From assembly GCA_018449715.1 (NCBI GenBank), contig JAAVVA010000004.1, positions 186,001 through 250,000 of the forward strand: a stretch of DNA of 64,000 nucleotides, in the 5' to 3' direction. The translations under genes were made by a program, and so were the position numbers. Below, one piece after another: positions 609-20,829 of the stretch. Source of the DNA: Acidobacteriaceae bacterium dw_441 (GTDB lineage Bacteria > Acidobacteriota > Terriglobia > Terriglobales > Acidobacteriaceae). The notes under the pieces are model-generated. The model had not been told where the DNA came from. It saw nothing but the letters and a program-made list of their open reading frames with translations, and ran no database searches. How positions within the stretch are numbered: position 1 is the stretch's first letter; the number at the start of each line of letters is the position of its first letter.

Positions 609-1514
609 ATGATGGAGACACTGACAAGACGGAGCGGATGGAGCGTGGCGAAGGCCGTGCTCGGCTGCGCGCTGCTGTGCTCTTCCGCGTTTGCTCAGGT
701 CTCCAGCTACGGGGACAAGCAGACCGGAGAGAATACCGGAGATCAGCTTCCCCAGGTTCTCCAGCGCGTTGGAGTCACGCAGCGACTGAACCAGCAGCTT
801 CCTCTCGATACGCAGTTTGTCGACGACACAGGCAAGCAGGTTCGCCTGGGAGACTACTTCGGCAAGCGCCCCGCAATCCTGACGATGGTGTATTACACCT
901 GCCCGATGCTCTGCTCGGAAGAGCTGGATGGTCTGGCCGGTGCGCTTGAGATGGTCAAGCTGGTTCCGGGCAAAGACTTCGATGTGATCGTCGTTTCGAT
1001 CGATCCCAGCGATACTCCCGAGATTGCAGCGAAGAAGAAGGCCTACTACGTCAAGCGGTATGGTCATCCGGAGACGGCTGCTGGCTGGCACTTTCTGACC
1101 GGGCAGCGTCCTGCGATTGACCAGCTTACCGGTGCGACGGGGTTTGGATATGTTCGAGTTCCGGGGCCGGATGGCAAGCTGACACAGTTCGCGCACGCCA
1201 GCTCGATTGAGCTGGTTACGACGGATGGCAAGCTGGCGCAATACTACCTCGGTGTGGAGTACTCGCCGAAGGACATTCTGCTGGGGCTGATTGAGGCCTC
1301 GGACAACAAGATTGGTTCCACGGTCGCCAATATTCTGACCTACTGCTATCACTACGATCCGCATAACAACAAGCACTCGCTGATCGTCGCGCGGGTGGTG
1401 CAGTTGGGGGGAGTGGTAACCATGGCTGGTTTGGGCGGTTTTATGTTCGTAATGTTCCGCAGGGATATCAAACTCGGACGCGACCACGATTTGACGAAGA
1501 AAGAGAATGGATAA
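609..1514 (+). CDS. SCO1/SenC-family copper chaperone for cytochrome c oxidase
   Basis: A 301-residue thioredoxin-fold protein that in this family delivers copper to, or keeps reduced, the CuA site of cytochrome oxidase subunit II. The copper ligands are visible: C98 and C102 in TCPMLC, and H196 in FAHAS. The N-terminus looks like a cleavable signal or anchor (hydrophobic run at about 14-28 ending AFA). An additional membrane segment near the C-terminus (about 258-278, followed by RRD) suggests that it is anchored in the cytoplasmic membrane from that end. It directly precedes the CuA-bearing coxB with a 9-bp gap, which fits its role. The ATG at 609 is followed by a second ATG, and either could be the start. 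Confidence 0.93.
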   Translation: MMETLTRRSGWSVAKAVLGCALLCSSAFAQVSSYGDKQTGENTGDQLPQVLQRVGVTQRLNQQLPLDTQFVDDTGKQVRLGDYFGKRPAILTMVYYTCPMLCSEELDGLAGALEMVKLVPGKDFDVIVVSIDPSDTPEIAAKKKAYYVKRYGHPETAAGWHFLTGQRPAIDQLTGATGFGYVRVPGPDGKLTQFAHASSIELVTTDGKLAQYYLGVEYSPKDILLGLIEASDNKIGSTVANILTYCYHYDPHNNKHSLIVARVVQLGGVVTMAGLGGFMFVMFRRDIKLGRDHDLTKKENG

Positions 1515-5443: not shown

Positions 5444-6403
5444 CTATTGGGACGCGGCGTTGGCGTTGTGTTCTTCGCTGGGGGTTTTGGTCTTCCGGTT
5501 GTTGCGGAGATACTGTCGCGGGGAAGTTCCCATCACTCGCTTGAAGGCTGTGCTGAAGGCGCTTTCGGATTCGTAGCCGAGTGAGAGCGCAATGGCGGAG
5601 AGAGGGTCGCTCGAAGAGGTCATCCTTTCTCCCGCGAGCAGCATGCGCCAGCGTGTGAGGTACTCCATTGGGGATGTTCCGACCATCTTTTTGAACTTCA
5701 TGGCGAAGATCGAGCGGGACATTCCGGCTTGCTCTCCCAACTGATGCAAGGTCCAGCGCTGGCCGGGAGAGGCGTGCATGGCGGTGATTGCCGCGCTGAT
5801 CTGTTTGTCTGCCAGGGCGAAGAGCCATCCGGTTCGGTCGCCTGATCCCTCCGCGAGGTGTCGCCTCAGGGCCTGAAGCAGGAGCATGTGGGCGAGGTGT
5901 TCGGCGACGAGAGAGGCTCCGGGCTGCTGCTCGAACAACTCCTGTCGCATTCGTTGGAGAGACCAGCGCATGGCGTCTTTGTCGGCCTCTTTCTGCAGGT
6001 GGAGGATGGGGGGCAACATTCCCAGCAGGATGCTGGAATGATGGCCGCTGAAGGTGAAGTGGCCTCCCATGATGCAGCATCCTCCACCGCCGTTGATGCG
6101 AGCGATGACGCCTTCTTTTTTCGCCGCCTTCAGCATGGGGAGGGGATCGATCGGCGGAAGCGCCAGATCGCTGGCCAGTCGAAATGGTCTTCCGTGGGGC
6201 AGCAGAAAGCAGTCGCCGGTCTGCAGAAGCACGGCTTCGGGGATGCCTTCCACGGCGAGCCAGCATTGCCCGGAGATCACGGCGTAGCACTTGATGCCGT
6301 CGTGCTGACCGAAGCGGGCAGACCATTCGCCGCCGATGTCGAAGCCTCCGGAGAGATAGCTTTGCGGTTTCAGCAGCGAGAGAACGTCAGAGAGAGGGTC
6401 CAT
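5444..6403 (-). CDS. AraC-family transcriptional regulator with N-terminal cupin domain
   Basis: 319 residues. The N-terminal half (about 1-190) resembles the cupin/AraC-ligand domain (SGQCWLAVEG, TGDCFLLPHGRP). The C-terminal 100 residues carry the double helix-turn-helix: first helix pair around LHQLGEQAGMSRSIFAMKFK, second around AIALSLGYESESAFSTAFKR, ending in the usual GTSPRQYLR. It is transcribed away from an SDR gene with a 126-bp shared control region. In comparable AraC/SDR pairs the regulator controls its divergent neighbour; this is inference here. The inducer is unknown. The C-terminal tail after about residue 300 is polar and poorly conserved in appearance. Confidence 0.92.
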   Translation of the reverse strand: MDPLSDVLSLLKPQSYLSGGFDIGGEWSARFGQHDGIKCYAVISGQCWLAVEGIPEAVLLQTGDCFLLPHGRPFRLASDLALPPIDPLPMLKAAKKEGVIARINGGGGCCIMGGHFTFSGHHSSILLGMLPPILHLQKEADKDAMRWSLQRMRQELFEQQPGASLVAEHLAHMLLLQALRRHLAEGSGDRTGWLFALADKQISAAITAMHASPGQRWTLHQLGEQAGMSRSIFAMKFKKMVGTSPMEYLTRWRMLLAGERMTSSSDPLSAIALSLGYESESAFSTAFKRVMGTSPRQYLRNNRKTKTPSEEHNANAASQ

Positions 6404-6529
6404 TGGGTATCCGGACGATTGCGAAGATAATACGGACTTCTAAGTATAGATCGTATCGCGTATGTCTTCTATTTTTGATCTTAATGTGACTGCATCGGCG
6501 GTCATGCAAAGTAGCTGGGGAGAGATTTC
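6404..6529. promoter_or_regulatory. divergent promoter region between AraC regulator and SDR
   Basis: This 126-bp A/T-rich spacer must hold both outward promoters and probably the AraC-type operator. The segment CGGACGATTGCGAAGATAATACGGACTTC contains two CGGAC boxes 22 bp apart, a possible pair of half-sites. No promoter matching consensus closely could be fixed by eye. Confidence 0.4.
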
Positions 6530-7420
6530 ATGCGGGTTTTTGTTACAGGAGCAACGGGTTTTGTCGGTTCTGCGGTCGTTCGTGAGCTTATAGGAGCGGG
6601 GCATCGGGTGCTTGGGCTGGCTCGTTCGGAGGCGGGAGCCAGTGCGCTTGCCGCCGCGGGGGCCGAGGCGCATCGCGGCGATCTGAGCGATCTTGAAGGA
6701 TTGCGGAGCGGGGCGGCTGGGTGCGATGCCGTGATCCATACAGGCTTCAACCATGATTTTTCGAAGTTTGCGGAGAACTGCGAGATGGACCGGCTTGCCA
6801 TCGAGGCCCTGGGGGCGGAGCTTGAGGGGAGCGAGCGGCCTTTGCTGGTGACCTCGGGGGTTGCGGTTCTGGCCAGGGACGGGATCGCGAGGGAGAACGA
6901 CGAGGCTGTTCCGGTCACGGACGCTTATCCTCGTGCGTCGGAGGCGACGGCGATGGCCCTGGCGGCTCGCGGGGTGCGGGCTTCGGTGGTGCGGCTTCCG
7001 CCAACGGTTCATGGCGAGGGAGATCATGGTTTTGTTCCGCTGCTGATTGGCCTTGCTCGCGAGAAGGGAGCGGCGGCGTATATCGGCGAGGGGCTCAATC
7101 GCTGGCCCGCGGTACACCGGCTGGATGCGGCGGCGGTCTATCGGCTGGCGCTGGAGAAGAACCTGATTGGCGGGCGGTTCCATGCGATTGCGGAGGAGGG
7201 GGTTCCCTTCCGCGAGATTGCTTCGGTGATCGGGAACCGGCTGGGCGTTCCGGTTGTCGGTAAGACTCCCGAGGAGGCAAAGGAGCACTTCGGATGGTTT
7301 GCGAGGTTTGCCGGGATGGGGGTTCAGGCTTCCAGTGAGCAGACGAGGTCGGTGCTGGGGTGGCAGCCGAAGCAGGCTGAGTTGCTCGCCGATATGGAGG
7401 AGTATTACTTCAGGGCGTGA
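6530..7420 (+). CDS. SDR-family NAD(P)-dependent epimerase/oxidoreductase
   Basis: 296 residues of extended or atypical short-chain dehydrogenase fold. The N-terminal Rossmann motif [11 protein letters not shown] (about residues 7-17) and the later LARSE segment indicate binding of a dinucleotide, probably NADP. The family's strand motif before the active site appears as VTSGVAV, and [16 protein letters not shown] matches the substrate-side motif of this subfamily. The classical Tyr-x3-Lys pair is not clear: the corresponding stretch is YPRASEAT, without the Lys, so the catalytic mechanism may differ or the protein may only bind nucleotide. The substrate is unknown. It is divergent from the AraC gene that probably controls it. 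Confidence 0.88.
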
Positions 7421-15965: not shown

Positions 15966-16139
15966 GGACATCCTGCAAAGACTAGGACATTCGGACGATG
16001 TTTCGGGAACGAGGTGCGATTACATTAGCTTGGTAAAGCTCTCCGGGGTGCCCACGACGGCGCCTCTTTTTTTGTGCTCCTGTTGATGGAAAGAGTCTTT
16101 AACGCTTACGTAATCTGCGTATAAGATGCTTCCATCTTG

Positions 16140-17258
16140 ATGACCAATAAAGTTTTGAGCGGCGTTCTTTTCTGCGTGGGTGCTGTTGCGATGGCAAAGG
16201 CACAGGATGTTTCGGCGAACCCTTACCTCCAGGTGATAGAGAAGGCGTGGAAGCACGCCCAGGAGCATGGAGCGGTGCGGCCCGTGCTGTCGCCGGTCGA
16301 TGCGACGATGCTGAACGGTGAAGTTCCCCTGAAGGAGTTGCAGGCTCGGGGCTTCCAGGTGGTTCCGTGGACGACGAACGAGCCGGAGAAGATGCGGACC
16401 CAGATCCGCATGGGAATCGACGGTCTGATTACCGATCGTCCTGACCTGCTGCAGCAGGTGCTGAAGGAAGAGCGGGCGAATCCGCAGCCGGGAGAGAGGC
16501 TGAAGGGGTTTGATGTTTCGGCGCACCGCGGCGGTCGCGGGCTTCGTCCGGAGAACACGCTGCCCTCGTTCGAGAGCGGGCTCGACCAGCTGACGACGAC
16601 GCTGGAGACGGATACGGGCGTGACGACGGACGGCGTTTCGCTGATGTGGCACGATCAGTTTCTGAACCCCGAGAGCTGCCGCAAGGCGGACGGCTCGGCG
16701 TATACGGCGGAGAACCGCGTCTTTATTAAGGACATCTCGATGCCGGAGGCGCAGAAGACCTTTATCTGCGACAAGGTCCACTTTGGCGCGGACCAGAAGA
16801 ACGATCTGGCTCTGTCGCCGGTGGCCGTGGCGTTTGCGAAGAAGGAAGGGATGATCAGCCCGTATGCTCCGACGTACGTGGCGCAGCTCTTCCGGTTTGT
16901 GGATTTTTATGTGGATTACTACCGCAAGGGTGCGGGCAAGAGCGATCCTCATGCGAAGGAGCGGGCGGAGAATGCGGCCCGTGCTCGCTTCAACATCGAG
17001 ACGAAGATTATGCCCGAGGGTCTTGCGACCGATGAGGCGCACCGCAATCACACGGTGGCGCCGCAGGCGTTTGTCGATGCCCTGTGCGGAGCCATCGTGA
17101 AGAACAAGATGGAGTCGCGGGTCGAGGTGCAGAGCTTCGACTTCAGGACGCTGTTGCTGGTGGCCGAGCAGTTTCCGAAGATTCCCACCTACTATCTGAC
17201 CGGAGGCTCGAAGCTGCTTACGAGCCCGCTGGTTCCGGAGCAGTTGCGAGCGAAGTAG
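16140..17258 (+). CDS. secreted glycerophosphodiester phosphodiesterase with apparently permuted domain order
   Basis: 372 residues from ATG 16140 (a TTG directly before it is also in frame). A signal peptide (about 1-21, ending AKAQ) indicates export. The catalytic start motif of the GDPD TIM barrel, AHRGGRGLRPENTLPSF, begins at residue 128 rather than near the N-terminus, with H129, E138-N139 and the second His in WHDQ (171) in normal order. The segment that normally closes the barrel, GFQVVPWTTNEPEKM...GIDGLITDRPDLL, is found at about 71-104, before the catalytic motif. The C-terminus stops shortly after FDFRTLL...IPTYYLTG, where that closing segment would be expected. It probably hydrolyses glycerophosphodiesters in the periplasm if the barrel can close. 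Confidence 0.85.
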   Translation: MTNKVLSGVLFCVGAVAMAKAQDVSANPYLQVIEKAWKHAQEHGAVRPVLSPVDATMLNGEVPLKELQARGFQVVPWTTNEPEKMRTQIRMGIDGLITDRPDLLQQVLKEERANPQPGERLKGFDVSAHRGGRGLRPENTLPSFESGLDQLTTTLETDTGVTTDGVSLMWHDQFLNPESCRKADGSAYTAENRVFIKDISMPEAQKTFICDKVHFGADQKNDLALSPVAVAFAKKEGMISPYAPTYVAQLFRFVDFYVDYYRKGAGKSDPHAKERAENAARARFNIETKIMPEGLATDEAHRNHTVAPQAFVDALCGAIVKNKMESRVEVQSFDFRTLLLVAEQFPKIPTYYLTGGSKLLTSPLVPEQLRAK

Positions 17259-17287
17259 CTCTTCGGCAACTCTCGTTTCCTCCGAGT

Positions 17288-17324
17288 CGCATCCCGCCCA
17301 TCACGCGGGATGCGGTTTGTGTTT
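17288..17324 (+). terminator. rho-independent terminator after the phosphodiesterase gene
   Basis: A perfect 10-bp stem CGCATCCCGC/GCGGGATGCG (17288-17297/17305-17314) with a 7-nt loop is followed by GTTTGTGTTTT. It lies 30 bp downstream of the stop. Confidence 0.85.
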
Positions 17325-17487: not shown

Positions 17488-20400
17488 ATGCGTAAAATTT
17501 TTTATCTACTGACAGCGGCAATCGTGTGTCTTGTTCTGCTCCCGGGGAAAGCTGTGGCGCAGTATGAGAACGGCAGCATCGTAGGAACGGTTCACGATGG
17601 TTCGGGCGCGGTGGTTCCCGAGGCAACCGTGAAGGTGACCAATGTGGCGACCGGTGTGGTGAGCACGCGCCAGACGAACGCAAGCGGTGACTACGAAGTT
17701 CCGGCGCTGCGCGTGGGACAGTACAACGTCGAGGCCACCAAGGATGGCTTCTCCATCAGCCGCGCAACAGATATTACGCTCTCGATCGGAGCCCGCCAAC
17801 GTATCGACCTGACGCTGAACGTCAGCGGTACCAGCGAGACCGTCGAGGTGACGGGCGTTTCGCTGGGCGTGGAGACCGAGACCAGCCAGCGTGGACAGAT
17901 CGTGACCCAGTACCAGACGGCGGCGCTTCCCCTGGTCAGCCGCAACTACTCGGACCTGATCGGACTAACGGCGGGTGTGCGTCAGGCGGCGGGTGCTTAC
18001 ACCAGCACCTCGAACACCGGCCTGGTGCGCGAGGGTTCGTTCAACGTCAACGGCCAGCGCTCGATCTTCAACAACTTCCTGCTCGACGGTATGGACAATA
18101 ACGCCTATGGCGAGTCCAACCAGGGATTTTCGAACCAGATCATCCAGCCCGCTCCGGACTCGATTGCGCAGTTTCAGGTTGTGACCAACAACGAGTCCGC
18201 CGAGTATGGCCGCGCCTCGGGTGCGGTGGTCAACGTGGCCTTCGCGCAGGGCGGCAACAAGTTTCACGGTCGCGTGTACGAGTTCCTCCGCAATACGGAC
18301 CTGAACGCCACCGGCTTCTTCCGTCCGCCGGGAGGCCAGAAGCCCTCGTACAACCGCAACCAGTTCGGCGGCAACTTCAACGGACCTATTATTAAGGACC
18401 ACCTGTTCTTCTTCCTCGATTACGAGGGCTTCCGCCAGGTGCGTAAGCAGGTTTCGTCGGCCACGGTTCCTACGGTGAACCAGGCGAACGGCATCTTCTC
18501 GAAGGATGTCTACGACCCTTATAACGGTACGAAGTACGCTGCAGGCACCTCGGTCCTGAATGCCCCGGATATCTCTCCGGCGGCGCGCACGATTGCGGGC
18601 CTCGTTGCAAAGCTGGGACAAACCTCGGCGACGAACAGCAACTTCACTACCTTCCAGCGCTCGAACAACTACACAGACAAGGGCGACCTTCGTCTGGACT
18701 ACACTATCGATTCGAAGAACTCGGTCTTCGTGCGCGCTTCGCACCTGAAGACGAACGCGACCGACTTCCCGATCTTCGACCTGCCGCTGGACGGCGGCTC
18801 GAACGGTAAGCAGCGCATCTTCGATCAGCAGATTGCCGGTGGTTATACCCGCGTGATCGGAGCCAACCAGCTTCTCGATGCGCGTATCGGCTTCTCGCGT
18901 ACCCGCGCGGGTAAGTACTCGGTTTCGATCGGAACCGATCCGGGCTTCTCCTTCCCGGGCCTGCCCACGGATCCGTCGGTGGCCGGAGGCATCCCGTCGA
19001 TCAGCATCTCCGGCTTTACCGGACTGGGTCGCCAGGGAACCAACCCGCAGTTCCAGAACCCCTCTCTGCTGAACCCCAAGGTGAACTACACCTGGGTCGT
19101 CAAGAACCACTCGCTGAAGGCGGGCTATGAGTACCAGCGCATCTGGATGGACGTGCAGGATACCAACCCGCTCTACGGTGGATTCAGCTTTGCCGGTGGT
19201 TACAGCCGCCCTTATACCCTGGATACCACGACCTCGAAGTACTCGACCGCGGAGACCGCGACGAGCGACAACAACTTCGCCGACTTCCTGTGGGGGGCGT
19301 CGAATCAGTACAACCTCTCCAGCTACTTTGTGGCTCAGCTGCGTAACTTCTCTCAGTTCGCCTACGTGCAGGATGACTGGAAGGTGACTCCGAAGCTGAC
19401 TCTTAACCTGGGCCTGCGCTATGAGTACACGAGTCCTTACTGGGAGGCGCAGAACCGCCAGTCGAATCTCGACCTGACGAAGATCGCCTCGGACCCCAAG
19501 GGAGCGATGGTTCCTGTCAGCTCTACCGGCAACAAGTATGGCTACGATCCGGACCGCAACGACTTTGCTCCCCGCTTCGGTTTTGCGTATGCGGCGGATG
19601 AGAAGACGGTCATTCGTGGCGGTTACGGTATCAGCTTCTCGCACTATGACCGCGCGGGCTCGGGCAACATCCTTGCGATCAATCCTCCTGAGGCGCTGTT
19701 CGTGACGGTAACCCAGACGGCTCCGAACGCAGGTGGCAATGCCTCCCAGTTCGTGAAGATGGATCAGGGCTTCCCGGCTTCGACCCTGCAGTTCGATCCG
19801 ATCACGGCCAACGTGACTTATATCGACAGCAACAGCTACCGCGACAGCTACGTGCACAACTACTACCTCGAAGTGCAGCGCAGCGTGGCGAAGAACATCC
19901 TGTTCGACGTGGCCTATGTGGGCAACCACGGATTGAAGCTGCTGCAGCTTGCCAACCTCAACCAGAAGGACCCGGCGAATGGAATGGCTCGGCCCTATCC
20001 GACCTACGGCGATATCACCATCGCGCTGCACTCGGCCTACTCGCACTACGATGCGCTGCAGGTTCGTTATGAGCAGCGCATGGTGGCGGGACTTACGCTG
20101 TTGAACTCCTTCACGTGGTCGCATGCGCTGGACAACGCGGGAGCTTCGCTCGAGGCCGCAACGCCCTCGCCGCAGGATATCCGCAACCTGGCTGCCGACT
20201 ATGGCCAGTCGGAGTACAACCAGCCGGTGATCAATACCACCTCGCTGGTCTACGAGCTGCCATTTGGTCGTAACCGTCGCTGGATGAATACGGGCGGCGT
20301 GCTCAACCAGGTGCTTGGTCAGTGGCAGATTTCGGCTGTGAATCAGGCCATGAGCGGCTTCCCCTACCAGATCGGCTACAACCCGCCGGCGGCCTTCCAG

Positions 20401-20829
20401 GTCTCGGGCATTGCGGCCAGCTATCGTGGTTCGAACCTCTACCGTCCGAACCGTGTTGCTGGTGTATCTCTGAACTCGCTCGACAAGTCGAAGTCGAACG
20501 GAACCTCGTTGCAGTACGTCAACCTGGCGGCAGTCCAGATTCCGACCAATGTTCCGGGTGCGACCTCGCCCTTCGGCAACATGGCGCGTGATCCGGGCCG
20601 TAGCCCGACGTTCAATACGCTGAACATCGCCTTCAACAAGCGCTTCGACACTCCTCTGGAAGCTCTGAAGGTGGAGTTCCGCGGTGAGTTGTACAACGCC
20701 TTCAACCACACCAACTTCACTGGACCGGGTGGCAGCATTGCGACCTCAAACTCGGGGCTTACGGGTGGCACCATCACCAGCACCTTCGATCCGCGCATTG
20801 TGCAGTTCGGTCTAAAGGCGATGTTCTAA
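17488..20829 (+). CDS. Oar-like TonB-dependent receptor with carboxypeptidase-regulatory domain
   Basis: 1113 residues. Signal peptide at about 1-24 (LLPGKAVAQ), then a CarboxypepD_reg/CNA-B-like beta-sandwich (GSIVGTVHDGSGAVVPEATVKV, about 30-110), a plug domain (about 115-250), and a long outer-membrane barrel rich in aromatic residues ending in the C-terminal Phe (GLKAMF). This architecture is the expanded receptor family of Acidobacteriota and myxobacterial Oar, thought to import or bind large oligomers; its ligand cannot be predicted. The energising tonB-exbBD genes lie at 35-38 kb. It stands alone between two terminators. The start codon has no obvious ribosome site (TTACCCCC precedes it). 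Confidence 0.93.
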   Translation: MRKIFYLLTAAIVCLVLLPGKAVAQYENGSIVGTVHDGSGAVVPEATVKVTNVATGVVSTRQTNASGDYEVPALRVGQYNVEATKDGFSISRATDITLSIGARQRIDLTLNVSGTSETVEVTGVSLGVETETSQRGQIVTQYQTAALPLVSRNYSDLIGLTAGVRQAAGAYTSTSNTGLVREGSFNVNGQRSIFNNFLLDGMDNNAYGESNQGFSNQIIQPAPDSIAQFQVVTNNESAEYGRASGAVVNVAFAQGGNKFHGRVYEFLRNTDLNATGFFRPPGGQKPSYNRNQFGGNFNGPIIKDHLFFFLDYEGFRQVRKQVSSATVPTVNQANGIFSKDVYDPYNGTKYAAGTSVLNAPDISPAARTIAGLVAKLGQTSATNSNFTTFQRSNNYTDKGDLRLDYTIDSKNSVFVRASHLKTNATDFPIFDLPLDGGSNGKQRIFDQQIAGGYTRVIGANQLLDARIGFSRTRAGKYSVSIGTDPGFSFPGLPTDPSVAGGIPSISISGFTGLGRQGTNPQFQNPSLLNPKVNYTWVVKNHSLKAGYEYQRIWMDVQDTNPLYGGFSFAGGYSRPYTLDTTTSKYSTAETATSDNNFADFLWGASNQYNLSSYFVAQLRNFSQFAYVQDDWKVTPKLTLNLGLRYEYTSPYWEAQNRQSNLDLTKIASDPKGAMVPVSSTGNKYGYDPDRNDFAPRFGFAYAADEKTVIRGGYGISFSHYDRAGSGNILAINPPEALFVTVTQTAPNAGGNASQFVKMDQGFPASTLQFDPITANVTYIDSNSYRDSYVHNYYLEVQRSVAKNILFDVAYVGNHGLKLLQLANLNQKDPANGMARPYPTYGDITIALHSAYSHYDALQVRYEQRMVAGLTLLNSFTWSHALDNAGASLEAATPSPQDIRNLAADYGQSEYNQPVINTTSLVYELPFGRNRRWMNTGGVLNQVLGQWQISAVNQAMSGFPYQIGYNPPAAFQVSGIAASYRGSNLYRPNRVAGVSLNSLDKSKSNGTSLQYVNLAAVQIPTNVPGATSPFGNMARDPGRSPTFNTLNIAFNKRFDTPLEALKVEFRGELYNAFNHTNFTGPGGSIATSNSGLTGGTITSTFDPRIVQFGLKAMF

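Follow-up and report, generated by a model that had tools for sequence, protein, structure and literature searches.

A naturally circularly permuted glycerophosphodiesterase gene inherited in the Acidobacteriaceae

The open reading frame (ORF) at 16140..17258 (+) of the window, by which we mean the whole stretch of 64,000 nucleotides analysed (186001-250000 of contig C6 in the coordinates of the genome search), belongs to a known enzyme family, the glycerophosphodiesterases (GDPDs) of Pfam family PF03009, and is a circular permutant that is natural and inherited. With a probability of roughly 0.88, we consider that the gene encodes an active, exported periplasmic GDPD of a natural circularly permuted subfamily, which probably arose once in the stem of the Acidobacteriaceae. 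As C7 of the own genome carries a GDPD of ordinary order, and two further matches in the genome exceed the Pfam cut-off, the permuted gene is an additional paralogue. The presence of the permuted clade and its ordinary relatives in one genome makes the cost, route and benefit of rotating a barrel directly testable.

To our knowledge, natural circular permutations of enzyme barrels are few. GH70 glucansucrases, compared with GH13, are natural circularly permuted (beta/alpha)8 barrels. Transaldolase and class I aldolase are presented as another such natural pair in PMC2213659. Both permutants resemble the present case in having a rotated barrel with its fold preserved, and differ from it in belonging to different enzyme superfamilies. 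No permuted GDPD is described among the literature matches listed, from a search that had most subscription journals outside it; PMC3482391 has both terms, and the GDPD passage in it concerns toxin immunity.

Order of the GDPD segments

The ORF encodes 372 aa plus stop and starts with MTNKVLSG, with a TTG one codon 5' of this start as an alternative opening. A probable Sec signal peptide, read by eye from the sequence, occupies residues 1-22 (16140..16205, +) and ends in AMAKA before QD; no lipobox was seen in it by the same reading, and its pLDDT is <50 in the structural model. It is followed by the N-part, residues 28-104 (16221..16451, +), which is the former C-terminal end of the barrel according to the Pfam GDPD match, PDB entry 3ch0 and pLDDT, and which contains helix alpha6, the LSP strand, VVPWTTN and GLITDRPDLL. 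Between the old C-terminus and the old N-terminus there is now a linker, assigned from motif spacing to residues 105-122 (16452..16505, +), and the distance from the ITD.P. motif to HRG is 18-30 residues in 55/55 permuted members. The C-part, residues 123-354 (16506..17201, +), is the former N-terminal and middle barrel as judged from Pfam and PDB matches, the alignment and the model, with the motifs HRG..PENT, ETD, WHD, NIETK, QSFDF and YYLT in that order. It includes a long stretch that separates the WHD strand from the NIETK strand, at about residues 175-282 (16662..16985, +; alignment and model). After beta6 comes a new C-terminal tail, residues 355-372 (17202..17255, +), placed by alignment, motif spacing and the model.

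The hairpin scan found a terminator-like hairpin before the gene (16045..16066, +) and another, of 15 pairs, after it (17283..17319, +). The gene may be monocistronic between them, with the number of such hairpins in the region at chance level (2 found, 2.4 expected from shuffles).

The Pfam GDPD profile matched the ORF with 87.5 bits in total, against a cut-off of 23.6, in two stretches; the best of them, residues 35-103, aligns with the end of the model, at profile positions 170-244 of 244. In the profile search of the genome, 202167-202448 matched positions 145-244 and the downstream 202524-203228 matched positions 1-176. A permuted protein thus appears in a profile search as two partial matches, and the rearrangement is easily missed. 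The best sequence match in the PDB was 3ch0, a Cytophaga GDPD (E 1e-21), in which query residues 123-193, 279-355 and 48-104 correspond to chain residues 8-78, 128-198 and 214-269; from these piecewise positions, the query has to be rotated for its pieces to follow the order of the chain. The closing GDPD segment (residues ~48-104) therefore stands before the opening one, with HRG at 129. The swapped order is not a product of chance, given the E value for 3ch0 and its recurrence in 43/299 genomes of the family.

The canonical order, with the HRG strand first and the WT.N...ITD strand last, is absent from this ORF. By motif pattern, both motifs were found in 75/101 ordinary ORFs, all 75 in canonical order, and one or none in the other 26. 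The rotation was also examined by blastp, using residues 119-372 followed by 28-118 as query against these 101 ordinary GDPDs, a set gathered by similarity rather than at random, of which 98 gave a match. The rotated query produced a single alignment across the artificial junction with 66/98, and in an alignment of five rotated members and 11 ordinary proteins the sequences were collinear through the motifs. With the query in natural order, the halves were joined for 1/98 (L159, where the alignment continues upstream of HRG) and lay in swapped order for 35/98; the best score was lower in natural than in rotated order for 71/98.

Compared with PF03009 GDPDs such as 3ch0, the protein shares the motifs HRG..PENT, E.D, HD, E.K, SFD, WT.N and ITD.PD and the TIM barrel, and differs in its rotated segments, in termini lying between beta6 and alpha6 and in a longer region before NIETK. 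The ordinary GDPDs of the Acidobacteriota, of the FNIETK type (own genome C7, L002) and the G800 type (L159), resemble it in FNIETKI and SFDFRTL/SFDWRT, in an aligned Cys pair that a pattern finds in FNIETK types of the own class, and, for G800, in RL.GFDV before HRG; in both of these ordinary types the order is canonical.

The first-pass annotation had described a barrel-closing segment placed before the catalytic opening, with a signal peptide now ahead of the former tail. The position and content of the swap agree with the ORF and with the Pfam and 3ch0 matches, and the order is further borne out by conservation and structure prediction; the probable signal peptide does precede the N-part.

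Distribution, conservation and integrity

Homologues of the same order, which the first-pass annotation had suggested searching for, were found in 43/299 sampled Acidobacteriaceae genomes (own genome included; counted from the match table) and in 15 named loci. At E 1e-5 or better, 61/299 genomes gave a match of any kind, and the 43 with both parts in permuted order fall under 7 genus codes (g1, g3, g9, g32, g43, g64, g66). The permuted genes in the family genomes are 49-81% identical over the full length, and two genomes carry two copies. The named loci (L034-L048) belong to Edaphobacter, Terriglobus, Granulicella, Bryocella and unnamed Acidobacteria, and partly represent the same genomes as the sampled set (an overlap of at least 8/15). 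A sixteenth match of the named-contig pattern search, L049, is an ordinary GDPD.

A profile of 16 members, used at a threshold of E 1e-20, had matches in 47/399 genomes of the class sample, every one of them with the own family code: 33/34 of the same-genus genomes listed and 14 genomes of four other genera. The remaining genome of the own genus, G257, had no permuted gene by this profile at this threshold. In the phylum sample, 26/396 genomes matched at E 1e-20, all of the own family, so that no permuted GDPD was found outside the family at that threshold in either sample. Other phyla were covered only through the named-contig pattern search and through phage, viral and plasmid collections, so that permutants of independent origin may exist elsewhere. 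The phage collection gave no match to the permuted GDPD, the viral contigs no confirmed relative, and the plasmid collection only partial matches of ordinary order, in 4 records.

Among 55 distinct members, 15 of the 20 positions examined are invariant (H129, R130, G131, E138, T140, E156, D158, H171, C180, C210, D99, E287, K289, S332 and F333). The other five depart in one member each: W77 (G), T79 (P), N139 (S), D172 (E) and D334 (Y). The catalytic and metal motifs HRG, E.D, HD and E.K are accordingly present in 55/55, with D172 in 54/55. Against seven orthologues, dN/dS was 0.08-0.39 for residues 28-118 and 0.09-0.17 for residues 119-372, values which indicate purifying selection and that both parts matter. 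Two diverged permuted paralogues occur in G166, with WTT changed to GTT in one (L092) and SFD to SFY in the other (L093).

Since the same rotated order has been kept in dozens of related species, the gene is an inherited rearrangement and not a sequencing error. The ORF could otherwise be what is left of a disrupted tandem pair, a pseudogene or a misassembly, as deletion in frame inside such a pair would produce the observed order and single relatives do show decay: a stop in the N-part in G270, a missing signal peptide in G457, and in G470 a second, 76-aa copy of just the C-terminal end, 2.7 kb away from the full gene on its far side. We give this explanation a negligible probability, as the order recurs in 43/299 genomes, 42 of them (all except G270) without a stop in the match, the catalytic residues are invariant in 55/55 and dN/dS is low in both parts. 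For the window's gene, misassembly and pseudogene formation were ruled out by conservation across many assemblies, which also disposes of the mis-assembled tandem gene raised in the first-pass annotation.

Of the G270 and G457 copies (L204 and L205), that of G270 has an in-frame stop inside a disturbed stretch of the N-part and that of G457 has a stop just before the permuted part, with no signal peptide in frame; these could be cases of decay in single relatives. Seven full-length matches of the 16-member profile in the class sample contain a stop. Five of them are in genomes with a stop-free match in the family search (G130, G150, G209, G233 and G278), another is the G457 copy, and the stop in the G166:C13 match is taken to be the gene's own end. 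The G470 fragment lies at about 1086-1307 (-) of L117, contains only the C-terminal end and is separate from the intact gene.

Predicted barrel, catalysis and neighbourhood

The structure of the full protein was predicted with AlphaFold2 from a shallow alignment of 16 members, giving a mean pLDDT of 79.9 and a pTM of 0.81. Block means of pLDDT reach 93-98 in residues 31-100, and low values occur around 171-230 and 291-310, so that within the WHD-NIETK region only the stretch at about 171-230 is low. With VIA-align, 3ch0 residues 1..212 of 272 fit model residues 106..369. The designed symmetric barrel 6yqx aligned over model residues 29..354 (168/181 residues, rmsd 2.6, Z 11.7), and 6yqx, 7p12 and deoxyribose-phosphate aldolases fit along residues about 24-354; these full-length fits are to unrelated barrels and are evidence for shape only. 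In Foldseek, GDPDs scored TM 0.29-0.37 by query length, with 3ch0 as the best fold match. Both structural aligners are sequential and returned no rotated superposition, and their covering mainly the C-part of known GDPDs is what would be expected for a permutant.

As a control, the C-part alone was predicted with the same 16 members and had a pLDDT of 72.2. Its first two blocks, around HRG, reached 51 and 46, compared with 90 and 70 in the full model, and residues with pLDDT >=90 numbered 62/254, compared with 202/372 in the full protein, of which some 80 are in the N-part by block means. These values suggest that the C-part could fold partly alone, but less surely. From the pTM, the barrel fits and the loss of confidence without the N-part, both parts are predicted to form one complete, closed TIM barrel. 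The first-pass annotation had proposed structure prediction as a check on this; the model points to N- and C-terminal parts completing each other, and the confidence over residues 31-100 argues against the unfolded N-terminal fragment that it had named as the opposite outcome.

The barrel is opened between beta6 and helix alpha6, with the new N-terminus preceding alpha6 and the new C-terminus 18 residues past the beta6 strand (YYLT) in the window's protein. In the near groups of ordinary relatives the beta6-beta7 stretch, helix included, is 19-44 residues long, so that the break fell in a region of variable length. In TIM barrels the old termini are close together, which makes joining them cheap.

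The fold, the catalytic residues invariant among members and a likely signal peptide together suggest a periplasmic, metal-dependent GDPD. Once exported, the two parts, of which the N-part spans alpha6 to beta8 and the C-part beta1 to beta6, would fold into one ordinary barrel, the old termini bridged by the linker and the new ones between beta6 and alpha6. Catalysis would be the standard metal-dependent GDPD reaction, in which glycerophosphodiesters from deacylated phospholipids would be converted to sn-glycerol 3-phosphate and an alcohol. We take His129 and His171 to be the acid/base pair and Glu156, Asp158 and Glu287 to hold the metal. Cys180 (16677-16679) and Cys210 (16767-16769), invariant in 55/55 by alignment, could possibly form a disulfide. 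An aligned Cys pair was found by pattern in 41/101 ordinary proteins (FNIETK types of the own class and L049); the same pattern, written for ordinary proteins, found only 2/55 members.

A TonB-dependent/Oar-like outer-membrane receptor gene (17488..20829, +) is the downstream neighbour, and it is kept beside the permuted gene in relatives. A relative of the receptor is directly downstream in L034-L042 (9/15 named loci), and of the remaining loci some have short contigs or other genes downstream. In L048 (Bryocella), an aquaporin-family (MIP) gene at 6002-7051 separates the permuted gene from a receptor gene downstream, and a nearer receptor relative lies upstream. The gene after the receptor varies (DHA2 exporter, tgt, sigma factor, PafA-like phosphatase under the cut-off). 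The MFS gene at this place in L034, L037 and L040 was considered as a glycerol-3-phosphate carrier and rejected, as it is of the DHA2 exporter type. In Terriglobus albidus (L041, 9563-11093), the gene after the receptor is a PafA-like alkaline phosphatase (298 bits, cut-off 650).

A joint role of GDPD and receptor in phosphodiester scavenging is a guess. The folded permuted barrel might also no longer be a GDPD and bind or cleave some other phosphodiester, perhaps delivered by the neighbouring receptor. Such a change would fit the receptor's conservation in 9/15 loci, the length of the WHD-NIETK region and the very long stem, of 1.83 changes per column, on which the permuted family stands in the C-part tree, yet the metal and acid/base positions are kept in 55/55, and we regard it as unlikely. 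A broader version, in which the clade joins parts of two GDPD paralogues, acts on a new substrate and scavenges soil phosphodiesters with a dedicated TonB-dependent receptor, seems to us very doubtful.

Origin of the rotated order

The simplest account of the active permuted GDPD is permutation of one ancestral gene, which we favour over a chimera of two genes. There was probably a single origin in the stem of the Acidobacteriaceae, followed by inheritance. Most simply, one exported GDPD gene would have been duplicated in tandem and then trimmed, in line with the general model of permutation described in PMC2213659. The first-pass annotation had likewise proposed tandem duplication followed by loss of the outer parts. 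This is still plausible as a mechanism, but no tandem GDPD or leftover parts accompany it and the N-part trees leave room for fusion. No tandem GDPD was present among the 101 ordinary ORFs, and leftover outer parts were not found at E 1 beside the gene in 18 sequences (window, L034-L048, L117 and L118) except for the G470 fragment; such absences prove little. One candidate tandem pair, G207:C4:1445910 (query 70-186, with TGA read-through), was rejected, as the region held one ordinary GDPD ORF.

In a chimeric permutant, the N-part would come from another, UgpQ-like, GDPD gene than the C-part through a tail-to-front fusion, with one barrel as the product. By blastp, the N-part is most similar to short UgpQ-like proteins (L137, 58.9 bits) and the C-part to FNIETK-type proteins (L104 and L122, 90.9 bits), and FastTree sets the N-part beside L138/L052/L053 at 0.79. 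However, the N-part, with its 77 columns, was compatible with each grouping that was tried (AU p 0.18-0.28 with the careful tree, 0.51-0.71 with the quick one), and the quick and careful trees disagree on its place. There is similarity, too, between the N-part and the ordinary GDPD of G800, a protein that also matches the C-part and the end of the linker. We consider this fusion quite unlikely, and simple permutation of one gene is retained.

Before the trees were made, 9/101 ordinary proteins lacking the motif used for cutting were dropped and the 55 family members were thinned to 42; the careful trees comprised 7 family and 27 ordinary rows, picked by hand, and are preferred because the quick trees missed better topologies. 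In the careful C-part tree, the family is placed, on its long stem, with exported FNIETK, 3ch0-like and G800-like GDPDs (100/99), which are of Acidobacteriota and Bacteroidota type. An AU test did not reject placing the C-part with UgpQ types instead (p 0.44), despite the 100/99 split in the free tree. By score, the closest ordinary proteins are L164, L159 (G800) and L163, from another class, with 148, 140 and 132 bits, and the linker end RLKGFDV resembles RLTGFDV before HRG in the ordinary GDPD L159 of G800 (RLTGFDVQGHRGARGLAPENT).
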